NCBI RefSeq assembly: GCF_000430005.1
Contig: NZ_AUCY01000012.1
Location: 62,001-126,000, forward strand
Direction: 5' to 3'
Origin: Desulfovibrio cuneatus DSM 11391
Lineage (GTDB): Bacteria; Desulfobacterota; Desulfovibrionia; Desulfovibrionales; Desulfovibrionaceae
DNA: 64,000 nucleotides
Shown here in pieces: positions 10,796 through 18,787 of this stretch. The position numbers were made by a program, and so were the translations under genes. The notes below the pieces were generated by a model. That model made no database searches. It was not told the DNA's origin and saw only the letters and a program-made list of their open reading frames with translations. The stretch's first letter is position 1; each line of letters starts with the position of its first letter.

Positions 10796-10863
10796 AGAAA
10801 AAGACGTCATCAAAGAACTTGTGTCGGCAATCAATCAGCGTTTCCTTAAATAAGGAGAAGGCC

Positions 10864-12633
10864 ATGTATATTTCAGGAATGATGTCTGCTTCTTTCACGC
10901 AAGCTTCCCGGCGGGCCAAAAAGCCCATGCGCATTGGCACGGAGTTAATGCCTCTTACGTCTTCCATGGGGTCAGCCAAAAATGACGCACGTAAGGTGGT
11001 TGCTCATGACAAGCTGGACTTAAGCGGCATTGACGCCAAAAGCCTGCAAGCCCTTGCAGCCATGCAGGGGCAAGAGCGCACATTTACTGTGAACAACATG
11101 ACCATGACCCTGAAGGAAGATTCAGATGGTTCCCGTACCTTGCTGGTGAAGCAAAAGGGGCAGGAAGACCAAACTTTTACCTTCACAGGGGATGCCCGCC
11201 TTGTGCAGGGAAAAAATGGCCAGATGGAACTTGTTTCCGGCAAGGAAGCTCTTTCCGGCGGGGTACTGCGGGCACAAAGCGAAGGGGAAGTGTTACTGCG
11301 CCAAGACGCAAAAGTGGTGGACACCGGGAAATTTTCTGCTTCCGTGGTGAGCCTTGGCAGCGGCCCTGCCACCTATACCAGCTCCGGCGGAAAAACCGTG
11401 TATACCGGGGTGTTCAATGAAAGCACCATTACAGATACCGGGGGCGAAGCCTCATTTTTCGGCTTGTTCAACAAATCCACCGTTAGCGTCACGGGCATGG
11501 GCAACTTTGATGGGGCCTTCAAGGACAGTTTTGTGCAGGGGGGCAAGGGGGGCAACACGTTCCATGGCAGCTATGCCTCTTCGGAAGTGCGCGGGGATGC
11601 TGGCAAGGATATTTTTTCCGGCAACTTTATCCACCAAAGCAAGCTGTTCGGGATGGATGGCAACGATATATTCAATGGTGTGTTTTCCCACTCCGAACTG
11701 GATGCGGGCAAGGGCAACGACTCCATTGGGCGCGAAGGGATGCTGGTATACAATGAAGTAGACAAGCTCTATGACCTTGCTGCCACCATTATGGATTCCA
11801 CCATTGTAGGCGGCGAAGGGGACGACACCTTAAATGGCGTTATGGCACGCACGCAAAGCGACCTGGGCGAAGGGGACAATACGGCTTTCGGGCTGTATGT
11901 AGACTCCACCCTGACCACAGGCGGGGGGAAAGATACGGTAAACGCCCTGTATGGCAAAAACTCAAAATTTGTCACTGGCGACGGGGATGATTCCCTAAGC
12001 ATAGCCACCGCTGTTGGTACTGAAGTGGATGCGGGCAAGGGCAAAAATTCCGTGCTGTTTGGGGTGCCTGAAGGGGAATTCATGACTATGAATACCAGCA
12101 CAGGCAGCACTGTGACCATGAATGACCTGCTATTTTCGGGTTCCTTGGTTGGCCCTAAGGCTGATGCCTTTGGCAAGGTGGAGCAGAACCACGTTTCTGC
12201 CATGGACCCCAAAGGAGAAACCACGGTTACAGCGTGGGTTGACGGCATTTCGCACCTGCTTACCTCATTTGCCGAGTCTCCTGAAGACGAGGAAACCAAA
12301 GCCCAAAAGGAAATGGAAGAGAGTTACGAAAAGCAGGAAACTGAACAGGCAAGCGGTGCCACCAGCAGCCACAACGCGCAAGCAACGGAAGAAGCCCTTC
12401 CTGAAATGACAGAGAAAGAAAAGGCTATTGCCGCCAAGGCAGAAGAAGAAGCAGAGTGGATGCGGAGTCATGCTTCAAATTATTATGCCGTACGTTTCGC
12501 CCAGCACAACGGGGCCATGCAGGACATTAACGGTGAAAAAGACTATTATAAACCCAAAGAATTTCCCGTTAAAGACGATATTGTTGTGAACAAAAAGCGC
12601 AAGGCCTTGCTTGCCTATGGAGTGTGGACATAA
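10864..12633 (+). CDS. RTX-like repeat protein linked to flagellar genes
   Basis: A 589-aa protein with three parts. Residues 1-165 have no known domain. Residues about 170-400 hold about eleven tandem repeats of 18 residues with the pattern S-x-v-x-G-g-x-G-n-D-t-f-x-G-x-f, for example GGEGDDTLNG and GDGDDSLSI, which resemble paired RTX nonapeptides that form a calcium-binding parallel beta-roll. A C-terminal tail from about 440 is very acidic and Glu-rich and ends in a basic stretch. There is no signal peptide, so export by a type I or the flagellar route is possible. I chose the ATG at 10864 because AAGGAG precedes it. It is divergent from fliK and behind a FliA-like promoter, which suggests a late flagellar or surface role. 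Function is unknown. Confidence 0.8.
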   Translation: MYISGMMSASFTQASRRAKKPMRIGTELMPLTSSMGSAKNDARKVVAHDKLDLSGIDAKSLQALAAMQGQERTFTVNNMTMTLKEDSDGSRTLLVKQKGQEDQTFTFTGDARLVQGKNGQMELVSGKEALSGGVLRAQSEGEVLLRQDAKVVDTGKFSASVVSLGSGPATYTSSGGKTVYTGVFNESTITDTGGEASFFGLFNKSTVSVTGMGNFDGAFKDSFVQGGKGGNTFHGSYASSEVRGDAGKDIFSGNFIHQSKLFGMDGNDIFNGVFSHSELDAGKGNDSIGREGMLVYNEVDKLYDLAATIMDSTIVGGEGDDTLNGVMARTQSDLGEGDNTAFGLYVDSTLTTGGGKDTVNALYGKNSKFVTGDGDDSLSIATAVGTEVDAGKGKNSVLFGVPEGEFMTMNTSTGSTVTMNDLLFSGSLVGPKADAFGKVEQNHVSAMDPKGETTVTAWVDGISHLLTSFAESPEDEETKAQKEMEESYEKQETEQASGATSSHNAQATEEALPEMTEKEKAIAAKAEEEAEWMRSHASNYYAVRFAQHNGAMQDINGEKDYYKPKEFPVKDDIVVNKKRKALLAYGVWT

Positions 12634-12654: not shown

Positions 12655-12915
12655 CTACTGCACAAAATAATAGCTTTCCAGTAAGTACGATTGCCCAATG
12701 CGCTCCATGCATTGGTATAGAAAGCGTTTCATGCGTGGGGCGGCCTCGGCATTTTGCACCAGTGCTTCTTGCAGGGTGGTGAACTTGTTGCGCCGCCGGG
12801 GCACAATGCAGGGGCCCACTATGCGTGTTTGTAGCGGGCATTTGCGTATAGGGCAAGGCATGAAATTGCCTTTGGTTACGGCTTGGGGTATAGGAGAACT
12901 GCATGTATTCTCCAT
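12655..12915 (-). CDS. small cysteine-containing hypothetical protein
   Basis: An 86-residue frame that fills the gap between the RTX-like gene and the hydrolase. It shows the motif MPCPIRKCPLQTRIVGPC, then a basic stretch and an amphipathic C-terminus. The Cys spacing could bind metal. The start (ATG at 12915) is only 12 bp from the divergent hydrolase start and has a weak ribosome binding site, so a later Met is possible. I do not recognise the family. Confidence 0.45.
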   Translation of the reverse strand: MENTCSSPIPQAVTKGNFMPCPIRKCPLQTRIVGPCIVPRRRNKFTTLQEALVQNAEAAPRMKRFLYQCMERIGQSYLLESYYFVQ

Positions 12916-12927
12916 CCTAGGAATCAT

Positions 12928-13773
12928 ATGAAGCTCCTCTTTACCTTGCTTGGTGTGGCCCTTGGGCTGTATGCTGTGTTTGCCCTTGGGTCTAACCTGC
13001 TTTATTGGCGCTGTGTGCGCCGTTTTCCGTGTGCGGCGTTGCCTGCCCCGGCATTTTCCGGCAGGGCATTTGCCGCCATGCTGTGGCGCACGGTTGTTTC
13101 CCAATTGTGGGAAATGTTGTGCGTGCCCAAAAGCATTTACTTGCGCAAGCGTTTTGAGCATGCCACAACACGCCATGCCCCGGTATTGTTGGTGCATGGC
13201 ATTTATCAGAATCAGGCTTCCTGGTTTGGTATGCAAAAGGCGCTGTATGGTGCGGGTTATGCCTCTACCTGTTATGTGTACCGCAGTTTTTATACTTCCC
13301 TCGAAGGATTGGCTGACGGCCTTGAAGAAGCGGTGGACCGGCTGGAACGACGGTTCCCCGGTAAAAAGCCTGTGGTGCTTGGGCACAGCCTGGGGGGACT
13401 TATTGTGCGGCTGTGGCTGATGCGCCCTGGCAATGGGCAGCGGCTTGGCGGAGTTATCACGTTTGGCACCCCCCATGAAGGTAGCCAGCTTGCCCACTTT
13501 GCCCCTGGCCAGCTTGCTAAAAGCCTGTGCCCTGGCTCCCTCTTTTTGCGCCAACTGGCAGCAGCCCACACGGCCCCTTCTTTCCCAGCCCATGCGTTTT
13601 GTTCCCCTACAGATGAATCGGTGCAGCCTGCCGCTTCCCTGTTGCCCCCTGCGGGGTGGCAGCTGCATGGCACAGAGCCGTGCAGCCATTTGGGGCTTCT
13701 TTTTAACAACAATGTCATTGCCCGGTGCATTAGCTTGCTGGGCCAAATAGCTGTAAGTGAGAGTCCCATATGA
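12928..13773 (+). CDS. membrane-anchored alpha/beta hydrolase, lipase-like
   Basis: Serine hydrolase of 281 aa. Residues 1-25 form one membrane anchor or uncleaved signal. The fold begins at PVLLVHGIYQNQ (oxyanion HG at 90-91). The nucleophile elbow GHSLGG places Ser at about 154. Likely triad partners are Asp in SPTDESVQP and His in CSHLGLL near the C-terminus. The motif GTPHEGS is typical of triacylglycerol lipases and PGAP1-like esterases. The ATG at 12928 has AGGA seven bases upstream; an earlier in-frame Met has none. The stop overlaps the next start as ATGA, so it is translationally coupled to the PilZ-like gene. The substrate is unknown. Confidence 0.8.
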   Translation: MKLLFTLLGVALGLYAVFALGSNLLYWRCVRRFPCAALPAPAFSGRAFAAMLWRTVVSQLWEMLCVPKSIYLRKRFEHATTRHAPVLLVHGIYQNQASWFGMQKALYGAGYASTCYVYRSFYTSLEGLADGLEEAVDRLERRFPGKKPVVLGHSLGGLIVRLWLMRPGNGQRLGGVITFGTPHEGSQLAHFAPGQLAKSLCPGSLFLRQLAAAHTAPSFPAHAFCSPTDESVQPAASLLPPAGWQLHGTEPCSHLGLLFNNNVIARCISLLGQIAVSESPI

Positions 13774-14285
13774 ACCGTTCCCCACTCCAAGTTGTTACCT
13801 CTGTTAAAACGCTGTTTCGGCTTATGGAAGATTTGTCTGAAGCGTCCCTGTATTCTGCCTCAATAGCAAGCGGGGGCAGTGCTGTGCGTGAAGCGTTTTG
13901 TGAAACGGCCCGCCTGCCGGAGGCAGTAACGCGCTTTCTGGTGGAAATGGATAAAAAACTGGATATTCTGGTGGGGCGGTTCCAGCAAGAGTCTCTTTCC
14001 ACGCACTTTCCTTCCCAGGGGCGCTTTGTGGCCTTAAGTGCCACCGGAGCAACGTTGCAGTGCCGTGAACCCTTGGCCCCCGGCGACTGCCTTGAGCTGA
14101 TACTTGTGCTGCAAGAGTTTCCCTTTGTTTCGGTGGTGTGCCGGGCCATGGTTGTTTCCTCCCTGGCAGACAGCGTGTATGCCGTGGCCTTTCAAAGTGT
14201 GGAAGAAGATGACAAGGAACGGCTTATTCAGTTTATTTTTCAGGAAGAACGCCGCCATATTCGCAGTGCCAAGGTTATGAACTAA
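13770..14285 (+). CDS. PilZ-like domain protein
   Basis: A 171-aa protein. The first 75 residues are helical. Residues about 85-165 resemble a PilZ beta-barrel: SQGRFVALSATGATLQC looks like the (D/N)xSxxG strand, followed by GDCLELILVLQEFPF and a C-terminal helix LIQFIFQEERRHIR typical of PilZ proteins. The arginine pair RxxxR that contacts cyclic di-GMP is not evident, so binding is uncertain. It is coupled by a 4-bp ATGA overlap to the upstream hydrolase, so the two probably act together. Confidence 0.6.
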   Translation: MNRSPLQVVTSVKTLFRLMEDLSEASLYSASIASGGSAVREAFCETARLPEAVTRFLVEMDKKLDILVGRFQQESLSTHFPSQGRFVALSATGATLQCREPLAPGDCLELILVLQEFPFVSVVCRAMVVSSLADSVYAVAFQSVEEDDKERLIQFIFQEERRHIRSAKVMN

Positions 14286-16352: not shown

Positions 16353-16768
16353 ACCCTGCCGGTACAATGCGTGGCACAAGGGAAAACGTTGATTGGATGC
16401 GACAAAAGTAACCAAATGTGTATTTTGTGAACAAAAATGCATGGAAATAGTTGCATGGCAGGCGTGGCTGACGTATGTAATACAGACATCAATGCACCTT
16501 CCGTTATGCTTAATGGTTTGCATGGCTTTTAGAGATGAGGATTTGAGTTCACGCACCCTCGTGTAACTTGTTTTAGTCCTGCGGGGCAGTTCTTTTCTCT
16601 TGTTCATGCAAGCATGTGCCAAATTTGTTTTGGTGGCGTTTACCCAGCGTTTCTGAAAACCTGGACAGCGCGGCCCGCATGGCATAAGCCGGGAGACTTT
16701 TACATATAAGTGCCTGCTATAATTCTTGAAAATACGTTTATGGCAAAGGCATTACCTTGGAGTGAACC
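16353..16768 (+). other. intergenic region upstream of the HD-GYP gene
   Basis: No credible gene. A TATAAT hexamer at 16718-16723 is a possible -10 for the downstream gene; the -35 is poor. Confidence 0.35.
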
Positions 16769-18787
16769 ATGGAAGTAATACTGCGGGGGGTGCGTGGCAG
16801 CATAGCCAACCCTTCATCAGAAACATTGTTTTACGGGGGCCACACAACCTGCATAGAAGTGCGAACCAACGAAGGGGCGCTCATTCTTTTTGATGCAGGT
16901 ACTGGCCTTTTTCAAATGAACAATTATTTGCCTGTTCATAAAGAGTGCCATATCTTTTTTACGCACGCCCATGCCGACCATATTCAGGGGCTATGCTTTT
17001 TCAAGCCTATGCATGACCCGGAATGGACAGTGCACTTATATGCCAGCAAAGCAGTGCAGGAAACTCTCCTTGGTTATCTTGCCGGGCAACTGTTTCCTGT
17101 GCCTTTCCAGAGCTTCAGGGGCAATATTGTTTGGCATGTTGTTGAAGCCGGAAAAATGGTTCAGGTAACCAGTGTGCATGGTACCCCGCAGCAAGGCGTG
17201 CAGGTGGAACCGCTTGCCGCCCACCACCCGGGAGGTGGCTTTGCTTATAAAGTACATGGCGATGAAGGCGTGTTTTTTTACAGCGGAGACCATGAAATTT
17301 CCCCAACTCCTGCTGCCCGTGAGTCTGCCCAGGCCCTTTTACGCGGGGTAGACCTTGCCGTGGTGGACGCCATGTTTGGCAAGGAAGATTACCAGCCGGA
17401 CTGGGGCCATTCCATGTGGGAAGAATGGGTTGCCAGCGCGGAAGTTGCTGGCGTGGGTTGCCTTGTGCTTTCACACCATGAACCCACGCGCAGCGACCGT
17501 GTTCTGGATCAGTTGCAGCACAAGTTGCAACGCATGGAAAAGCCCGGCGGGCCCAAGCTGCTGGTTGCTAAAGAAGGGGACCGCTTTTTCCCCCCCCAGG
17601 TGCCAACCTTTGTGGCCCAGCCAAGTGACTGGCTTCCCCTGTTTTTAGACAGTCTTTCCCGCTACCGGGAAGAAAGCAGCATTCTTGACCGTATTTTGGC
17701 CAAAAGCCGGGAAGTTACCGGGGCAGATGCAGGCACAGTGTTTGTGGCAGAGGGCAATGAACTTGTTTTCGCTTACACCCACAACGACAGCCTGTTTTCA
17801 GTAGACACAGCTTACAAGCATGCCTATTCAACCCTGCGCATTCCCCTTTCCATGGAATCTATTGCGGGCTACACCGCCATTACAGGCACGGTGCTGAACC
17901 TGCCAGACGTGCGTCAATTGCCAAAAAACGTGCCCTACGCCTTTAACAACACGTTTGATAACAGCACAGGCTACCGCACCCAGTCTGTGTTATGCGTGCC
18001 ATTTTACCACATGGGCGGGGAAATTGCCGGGGTGTTGCAGCTTATTAACAGTCACGATTCCCACACAGGCAAGGTTTGCCCGTTTTCCCCCGGTTCAGAA
18101 CAGTATGTGAAGTTGCTTGCCAGGGAAGCCCGCAACATTCTGGAACGCGGTTCGCTGTTGCGTAAGCATATTTACCGCATGCTGCACATGGCCGCTTCCC
18201 ATGACCCTGCGGAAACAGGGCCCCATGCAGAACGTGTGGGTGCCATTGCGGCAGAGCTTTATCAGGTGTGGGGCAACAGGCAGGGCATAAGCCTTGATAA
18301 AATACGCTATGAAAAAAGCTGCATTCGCCTTGCCGCCATGCTGCACGACGTGGGCAAAGTAGGGGTAAGCGACCTTATTCTGAAAAAACCGGCAAGCCTT
18401 ACAGATGATGAATTTACGGTAATGCGCAGGCACACCACCATGGGGGCTGCCATTTTGTACCCTTCCGGGGAAGACATTGCCGACATGGCCTATGAAATTG
18501 CCTTGCACCACCACCAAAAATGGGACGGCACAGGGTATGCGGGGGGAGAAGGCCATGGCAAACTGGTAGGGGAAGCAATTCCTTTGCCAGCCCGCATAAC
18601 GGCCCTTTCCGATGTGTTTGACGCCCTTGTTTCCCCCAGGTGCTATAAAAAAGCCTGGCCGTTTGATAACGCCATGAACCTTATTCGTGATGAGTCCGGA
18701 AAGCACTTTGACCCGGCACTGGTGGATTGCATGGAAGAGGTATATGCGTTGTTGCCTATGATATATACTCGTTTCCCCGACAGCTAA
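16769..18787 (+). CDS. metallo-beta-lactamase-fold / GAF / HD-GYP fusion protein
   Basis: Predicted cytoplasmic signalling enzyme of 672 aa with three domains. Residues 1 to about 280 form a metallo-beta-lactamase fold with the metal motif HAHADH at 66-71, later His at HHPGGG, Asp in SGDHE and His in SHHEP. This is the RNase Z/PhnP/phosphodiesterase-like class. Residues about 305-455 form a GAF sensor domain. Residues about 470-665 are an HD-GYP domain with HD at 526-527 (HDVGKVG), HHH at 580-582 and GTGYA at 587-591, where GYP is usual. HD-GYP domains hydrolyse cyclic di-GMP. The ATG at 16769 has GGAG upstream. Two different phosphodiesterase-type folds in one chain is unusual. The substrate of the N-terminal domain is unknown. 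Confidence 0.88.
   Translation: MEVILRGVRGSIANPSSETLFYGGHTTCIEVRTNEGALILFDAGTGLFQMNNYLPVHKECHIFFTHAHADHIQGLCFFKPMHDPEWTVHLYASKAVQETLLGYLAGQLFPVPFQSFRGNIVWHVVEAGKMVQVTSVHGTPQQGVQVEPLAAHHPGGGFAYKVHGDEGVFFYSGDHEISPTPAARESAQALLRGVDLAVVDAMFGKEDYQPDWGHSMWEEWVASAEVAGVGCLVLSHHEPTRSDRVLDQLQHKLQRMEKPGGPKLLVAKEGDRFFPPQVPTFVAQPSDWLPLFLDSLSRYREESSILDRILAKSREVTGADAGTVFVAEGNELVFAYTHNDSLFSVDTAYKHAYSTLRIPLSMESIAGYTAITGTVLNLPDVRQLPKNVPYAFNNTFDNSTGYRTQSVLCVPFYHMGGEIAGVLQLINSHDSHTGKVCPFSPGSEQYVKLLAREARNILERGSLLRKHIYRMLHMAASHDPAETGPHAERVGAIAAELYQVWGNRQGISLDKIRYEKSCIRLAAMLHDVGKVGVSDLILKKPASLTDDEFTVMRRHTTMGAAILYPSGEDIADMAYEIALHHHQKWDGTGYAGGEGHGKLVGEAIPLPARITALSDVFDALVSPRCYKKAWPFDNAMNLIRDESGKHFDPALVDCMEEVYALLPMIYTRFPDS

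Follow-up and report, generated by a model that had tools for sequence, protein, structure and literature searches.

Can a single polypeptide break down two different nucleotide messengers, with one of them governing the removal of the other? A gene in the window, by which we mean the whole 64,000-nucleotide stretch of Desulfovibrio cuneatus DSM 11391 DNA that was analyzed, raises this question because it joins a metallo-beta-lactamase (MBL) domain, a GAF domain, and an HD-GYP domain in one open reading frame (ORF). A sequence-only reading of the gene had proposed that two intact metal sites joined by a GAF domain might hydrolyze a pair of signals or couple one with the other, and that a GYA in place of the usual GYP might shift specificity. 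The conserved two-hydrolase architecture is real; it is a novel variant made from known parts, and its gene neighborhood ties it to a likely cAMP-making enzyme. A search of titles and abstracts in the openly licensed PubMed Central literature returned no paper on the MBL-GAF-HD-GYP architecture, which falls short of proving its absence from print. The features on which our argument depends are the following.

16759..16762, + strand: GGAG, six bases ahead of the ATG, a possible ribosome-binding site (sequence)
16769..18787, + strand: MBL-GAF-HD-GYP gene, 672 aa, ATG start
16769..17578, + strand: MBL domain, residues 1-270 (PF12706 at 39-237; model residues 1-275 align with RNase Z, YhfI, and the PhnP family)
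16961..16981, + strand: THAHADH, residues 65-71 (HAHADH at 66-71), fitting the [T/S]HXHXDH of atypical class-II phosphodiesterases (PDEs)
17225..17227, + strand: H153 of the MBL domain, a presumed metal ligand from the fold, in 44/44 fused proteins among the matches listed
17288..17290, + strand: D174 of the MBL domain, a presumed metal ligand from the fold, in 43/44 among the matches listed
17474..17476, + strand: H236 of the MBL domain, a presumed metal ligand from the fold, in 43/44 among the matches listed
17678..18130, + strand: GAF domain, residues 304-454 (Pfam)
18203..18226, + strand: DPAETGPH, residues 479-486, with ligands E482 and H486 (E-T-G subgroup; alignment and the consulted part of PMC4159591)
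18224..18721, + strand: HD-GYP domain, residues 486-651 (Pfam; match to PmGH, 4mcw)
18344..18349, + strand: HD motif, residues 526-527 (sequence)
18506..18514, + strand: HHH, residues 580-582, of which H581 and H582 match H276 and H277 of PmGH (PmGH alignment)
18533..18541, + strand: GYA instead of GYP, residues 589-591 (sequence)

Pfam finds all three parts in the 672-residue product above its curated cut-offs: Lactamase_B_2 at 39-237 (E 1.1e-18) and Lactamase_B at 24-177 (E 0.0001), GAF at 304-454 (E 1e-9), and HD_5 at 515-651 (E 1.3e-22) together with HD at 486-619 (E 1.6e-17). The HAHADH, HD, and HHH motifs lie at the residues that the sequence-only reading gave for them, its GYA is at 589-591, and domains, alignment, and ligand conservation bear out its picture of two intact metal sites joined by a GAF domain. 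The start methionine is invariant in an alignment of 33 sequences, two rows of which were trimmed to the homologous start, and the AlphaFold2 model of the protein, built on a 33-row alignment, has a mean pLDDT of 87.6 and a pTM of 0.72.

Searches for the fused gene in 40 relatives, 297 genomes of the order, 395 of the phylum, and a named-species contig collection (11 loci) recovered at least 44 distinct fused proteins after de-duplication by their last 300 residues. This family of 44, which comes from among the matches listed plus loci that were fetched, is not a random sample; it includes the N-terminally cut L161 and leaves out contig-end fragments without the MBL part (e.g., L016, L019, L046, and L055). 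Because 44 distinct proteins among the matches listed carry the three parts in a single ORF, and given the AlphaFold2 model, the architecture is more than a chance juxtaposition. Among named records, the fused gene occurs in MAGs of Desulfovibrio, Desulfovibrionaceae, and Desulfomicrobiaceae and in records titled Synergistaceae, Synergistales, or Zoogloeaceae. The latter (L039, L040, L041, and L047) hold close relatives of the cluster, for which transfer and binning error are both candidate readings. The genome of the window itself has two fused genes, 54% identical to each other: that of the window lies on contig C7 and the second on contig C13. A phage origin was rejected, as PHROGs gave one match ("metal-dependent hydrolase", 36 bits), and so was a defense origin, for which the PADLOC matches were weak (Cas3-HD models against the HD part scored no more than 24.6 bits).

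Of the 96 MBL domains placed in a tree, 43 are fused, 52 are standalone, and 1 is cut after the GAF. One branch (SH-aLRT 94 by the quick method) sets 51 of the 52 standalone domains apart from all others, and a single fusion would be the simplest reading of this topology. The lone standalone domain among the fused ones, that of L147 in genome G198, sits there as if a fused gene had split; it stands in a run of MBL, DACNH-DAC, GAF-HD-GYP, CHASE2 cyclase, second GAF-HD-GYP, FecR, and TPR genes. The DACNH-DAC gene of this run (L147 8037-9473, - strand), of the diadenylate cyclase type, keeps the DGA motif and lacks RHR; its DAC match scores 27.0 bits, which is at the cut-off, and the openly licensed PubMed Central literature yielded no relevant paper on DACNH. 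Separate MBL and GAF-HD-GYP genes also lie together elsewhere: in tandem in G316 (L205), with a CHASE2 cyclase ~1.4 kb on; with overlapping ends in G034 (L153); and convergently in G019 (L154). Since the MBL domains of L205, L153, and L154 fall with the standalone ones in the tree, the association of MBL with GAF-HD-GYP may predate the fusion or be independent of it. In three genomes, two standalone MBL genes of this family stand side by side in tandem (L105, L123, and L206).

The presumed active site of the MBL domain is well preserved. Of the 44 fused proteins among the matches listed, 42 retain every one of H66, H68, H71, H153, D174, and H236, the two exceptions being L161, whose N terminus is cut, and L203, whose site is wrecked; D70 is kept in 41 of the 44 among the matches listed and is S in L098. 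L203 (5832-7892, - strand, genome G554) is a natural variant in which most MBL ligands are lost and the HD-GYP site is complete, and it has no adjacent cyclase. Atypical class-II PDEs (Rv1339, YhfI, and CpdA) are defined by the PF12706 fold with [T/S]HXHXDH in the consulted part of PMC9293780, and the window protein has both; YhfI favors cAMP and cGMP according to the consulted part of PMC9117128. The N-terminal 275 to 280 residues of the model match the folds of RNase Z 2cbn (Z 27.8, rmsd 2.5, 244 aligned), YhfI (Z 27.2, rmsd 2.4, 235 aligned), a PhnP-family diphosphatase (Z 25.8, rmsd 2.4, 233 aligned), Apyc1 (Z 22.1, rmsd 3.0, 231 aligned), and yeast PDE1 (Z 21.8, rmsd 3.4, 256 aligned). 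We treated matches with a Z difference below 1 as tied, so RNase Z and YhfI share the first rank for this domain. Among NCBIfam models, RNase Z is the top match, at 42 bits over residues 26-76; we rejected RNase Z orthology, as TIGR02651 scores 42.3 bits against a cut-off of 292.95 and covers that segment only. NF041851, the NCBIfam equivalog for a cyclic nucleotide PDE, scores 33.3 bits over residues 1-250 against a cut-off of 400, which places the domain outside that orthologous group.

In the HD-GYP domain, all eight metal ligands of PmGH, the GAF-HD-GYP protein of Persephonella marina (E185, H189, H221, D222, H250, H276, H277, and D305 in the consulted part of PMC4159591), are kept in 44/44 fused proteins among the matches listed, the window protein included, as are K530, D618, Y590, R624, and K627, whose roles are known in PmGH; the E-T-G that begins with E482 marks a subgroup predicted to be trinuclear (both from the same part of PMC4159591). 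The window protein reads HHQKWDGTGYA where the consensus is HHExxDGxGYP. Among the matches listed, the 44 fused proteins carry T (16), A (14), P (11), or another residue (3) where the consensus has the proline of GYP; HHE is replaced by HHQ in 41, with A as the third residue in 2 and E retained in 1; and N stands in for the D of xxDG in 28. These counts make GYA ordinary within the family and HHQ its steadier mark. Such variation, together with the PmGH P286A variant, whose activity was not substantially decreased (consulted part of PMC4159591), led us to reject GYA as the specificity switch that had been proposed, and, given the same variant, HHQ and GYA are departures from the consensus rather than proof of inactivity. 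Six other HD-GYP genes of the same genome all fit HHExxDGxGYP in a motif pattern search that did not catch L003 and L004. Across 26 GAF-HD-GYP ORFs without MBL, a set that includes contig-edge fragments of fused genes, the pattern returned HHE in 13, HHQ in 7, HHA in 1, and no match in 5.

By sequence, the nearest solved GAF domains come from PDE5A, a cyanobacterial adenylate cyclase, PDE2A, PDE10A, PmGH, PDE6, and Lcd1, and 15 of the 16 chain matches are cyclic nucleotide binders, judged by their names. The PDE5A GAF superposes on the model with Z 20.8, rmsd 2.2, and 163 aligned residues. Cyclic-nucleotide-binding GAFs carry an NKFDE signature, and this is incomplete in the fused proteins: among the matches listed, N427 and F439 are present in 44/44, K428 in 1/44, D at residue 443 in 1/44, and E at residue 444 in 25/44.

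Gene neighborhoods provide a physical link between the fused gene and a likely source of cAMP. A gene with CHASE2 and a class III cyclase lies within 300 nt of 32 of the 44 fused genes among the matches listed; it is on the same strand in 31 (26 downstream and 5 upstream) and convergent in 1. Eleven fused-gene/cyclase pairs have a four-base overlap, and the nine negative gene distances partly reflect over-extended starts, because ORF starts were taken mechanically. Three neighbors tested beside fused genes match both PF05226 (CHASE2) and PF00211 in Pfam, and FecR and TPR/beta-barrel genes often round off the cluster. By comparison, a cyclase lies within 300 nt of 0/20 standalone MBL relatives (L110-L129, of which L124 and L127 have one farther off) and of 0/11 further standalone loci (L206-L216). 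No cyclase lies within 300 nt of the remaining 12 of the 44 fused genes among the matches listed, one of which is the window copy. Around six of them the available sequence extends 4.8 kb or more to either side, and the other six (L017, L043, L045, L097, L098, and L164) have less than 1.5 kb on at least one side.

The same association appears, with less force, at the scale of whole genomes. CHASE2-cyclase homologs (E up to 1e-25) occur in 34/36 chosen genomes with the fused gene versus 17/29 without, totals that combine a first set (26/26 versus 6/18), which missed ten fused genomes, mostly without a cyclase neighbor, and a second set that adds them (8/10 versus 11/11); G198 and G008, which have split or cut genes, are in neither count. 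The contrast is sharp inside the genus coded g23, with a CHASE2 cyclase in 16/16 chosen genomes with the fused gene and 0/8 without, and the co-occurrence is weak outside it. In genomes that lack the fused gene, several of the matches extend over no more than the cyclase part (G026 and G028). Two genomes, G039 and G017, have the fused gene and gave no PF00211 match and no CHASE2-cyclase homolog.

Most of the neighboring cyclases appear to be intact. Of the 34 cyclase rows aligned, 32 have the full set of two metal aspartates, a lysine, an asparagine, and an arginine; among the 34, one gene appears twice (L050/L151) and three are not beside a fused gene (L124, L127, and L150). The lysine typifies class III cyclases that are specific for ATP, and the conserved asparagine and arginine are presumably the transition-state residues. 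The gene that appears twice is the C13 cyclase adjoining the second fused copy in the window's genome, and all of its catalytic residues that were examined are replaced; it could be a pseudo-enzyme receptor. A PADLOC match of this C13 neighbor to a Pycsar cyclase (33.6 bits) was read as general class III cyclase kinship. In the cyclase tree, neither of this genome's two cyclases was placed with starred support.

The window copy itself stands between CstA and TauE/SafE genes and has no cyclase neighbor; the C13 copy does. Elsewhere in this genome, close to the end of contig C31, there is an intact CHASE2 cyclase without a fused gene as its neighbor, and its pairing in trans with the window protein is only a suggestion. 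A PilZ domain gene (31 bits), encoding a possible c-di-GMP receptor, lies at 13770-14285 (+ strand), ~2.5 kb before the fused gene. Two other ORFs of the window, at 10819-12633 (+ strand, 604 aa) and 12655-13785 (- strand, 376 aa), have no Pfam match at E 0.001.

We propose, with somewhat less than even confidence, that the fused protein is a two-messenger PDE working in a module with the CHASE2 adenylate cyclase. A cAMP-gated c-di-GMP PDE that destroys its own activator is the best explanation of the MBL signature and fold, the nearest GAFs, the precedents of Tlr0485 and Lcd1, and the cyclase linkage. In favor of the module we counted that linkage, the 0/20 and 0/11 among standalone controls, the intact cyclase residues, the g23 contrast, the MBL signature and fold, the HD-GYP ligands, the nearest GAFs, Tlr0485, and the single case of L203, which has a wrecked MBL site and no adjacent cyclase. 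Against it we counted the 12/44 fused genes without a cyclase, G039 and G017, the weak co-occurrence outside g23, the degenerate C13 cyclase, the RNase Z/YhfI tie, the 33 bits of NF041851, the incomplete NKFDE, and HHQ in place of HHE.

Several of these counterpoints belong to rival explanations. It is a rather doubtful but serious prospect that both hydrolases are active while the GAF senses another ligand or only dimerizes, so that cAMP and c-di-GMP would be lowered side by side; the gaps in NKFDE favor this, as does the diversity of GAF ligands, light-absorbing bilins and GDP among them (consulted part of PMC8846402), whereas the nearest solved GAFs belong mainly to cyclic nucleotide PDEs and a cyclase, and the gene is linked to a cyclase. 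We consider it unlikely that the MBL domain acts instead on an RNA end, pGpG, or a 2',3'-cyclic nucleotide, which would leave HD-GYP as the signaling enzyme and the cyclase as an upstream input only. RNase Z and PhnP-family folds do match as well as YhfI, and RNase Z heads the NCBIfam matches, but that match is far under its 293-bit cut-off, and the cyclase linkage also counts against this reading.

The HD-GYP domain, too, might be something other than a c-di-GMP hydrolase, either an enzyme for another cyclic dinucleotide (cGAMP or c-di-AMP) or a receptor like DvhD. We find this improbable. HHQ in 41/44 and N for D in 28/44 among the matches listed fit such a reading, as do the DACNH-DAC gene inside the split cluster of G198 and DvhD itself, which, in the consulted part of PMC13090378, is a protein of a sulfate reducer that binds c-di-GMP without hydrolysis. 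Yet DvhD has lost ligands that the fused family keeps (same part of PMC13090378), the eight PmGH ligands and the five further residues named above are present in 44/44 among the matches listed, and the DAC case is one genome with a score at the cut-off. Least plausible of all, and in our estimate very improbable, is that the window copy is a functionless remnant in decay; it has no cyclase neighbor and the cyclase beside its paralog is degenerate, but every ligand of both its sites is intact, and the same genome has the intact CHASE2 cyclase on C31.

Under the two-messenger proposal, the membrane CHASE2-class III cyclase, encoded by the adjoining gene in many relatives, would make cAMP in response to an outside signal that the cluster's FecR and TPR/beta-barrel proteins may relay. 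This cAMP would bind the GAF, a long helix of the PmGH type would switch the HD-GYP domain on, and c-di-GMP would be hydrolyzed; the fused MBL domain, resembling the atypical class-II PDEs, would then hydrolyze the cAMP and reset the switch. The window copy, having no cyclase neighbor, would have to answer to the C31 cyclase. Whereas the architecture, the intact ligands, a tree consistent with one fusion, and the physical linkage to the cyclase are observed, we infer that cAMP is both MBL substrate and GAF ligand and that c-di-GMP is the HD-GYP substrate, as well as the direction of the switch and the trans pairing. The MBL part probably breaks down cAMP, and the HD-GYP part probably breaks down c-di-GMP. 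A self-resetting converter between the two messengers is suggested by the adjoining of the fused gene to a likely cAMP-making cyclase gene in many genomes. The original idea that two signals might be hydrolyzed or linked is supported indirectly, by the linkage to a class III cyclase gene and by the nearest folds.

The component parts of this scheme have known counterparts. PmGH (4mcw) is the best match by both sequence (E 1.3e-51) and fold (Z 28.4, rmsd 7.8, 350 aligned, over the C-terminal part) and shares the GAF, the long helix, the HD-GYP domain, and its eight metal ligands; it differs in having no MBL domain, in HHE and GYP where the window protein has HHQ and GYA, in a shorter GYP loop, and in lacking a one-residue insertion between D and E. 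Tlr0485 of Thermosynechococcus, a cAMP-activated c-di-GMP PDE, shares the GAF joined to HD-GYP and the proposed logic, a likeness by description alone; the consulted part of PMC8846402 describes it without an MBL domain. Control of c-di-GMP turnover by cAMP in one chain is likewise found in Bd1971, a cAMP-sensing EAL c-di-GMP PDE (PMC6717892), and Lcd1, a cAMP-activated GAF-GGDEF protein (PMC8846402). These have EAL and GGDEF instead of HD-GYP, and the consulted parts of both papers mention no cAMP-removing domain. Rv1339, YhfI, and CpdA, and also Apyc1, share the PF12706-type MBL with [T/S]HXHXDH; they are described as separate enzymes in the consulted text, whereas the window MBL is fused to GAF-HD-GYP and lies far below the NCBIfam equivalog cut-off. 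Finally, S. meliloti has CHASE2 cyclases that make cAMP on input from NsrA, a beta-barrel of the outer membrane; the consulted part of PMC13001267, which describes them, mentions no HD-GYP or MBL partner. The fused-gene cluster likewise holds a TPR/beta-barrel gene, and the NsrA input makes its product a candidate sensor.

Cross-talk between cAMP and c-di-GMP is already known through the receptors Bd1971, Lcd1, and Tlr0485. The fused family brings together, in one chain often tied to a likely signal source, a sensor, a c-di-GMP-type hydrolase, and a possible activator-removing hydrolase. That a single chain uses two unrelated metal folds to hydrolyze two messengers and is itself controlled by one of the two, which would give it a built-in timer, is a proposal that we hold a shade more tentatively than the module itself. 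It offers a candidate substrate for one branch of the broad MBL family PF12706, and with the intact, split, unlinked, and site-dead versions that occur in nature it becomes a defined circuit that could be tested with a handful of purified proteins. If it is true, a pulse of cAMP would be turned into a pulse of c-di-GMP removal.
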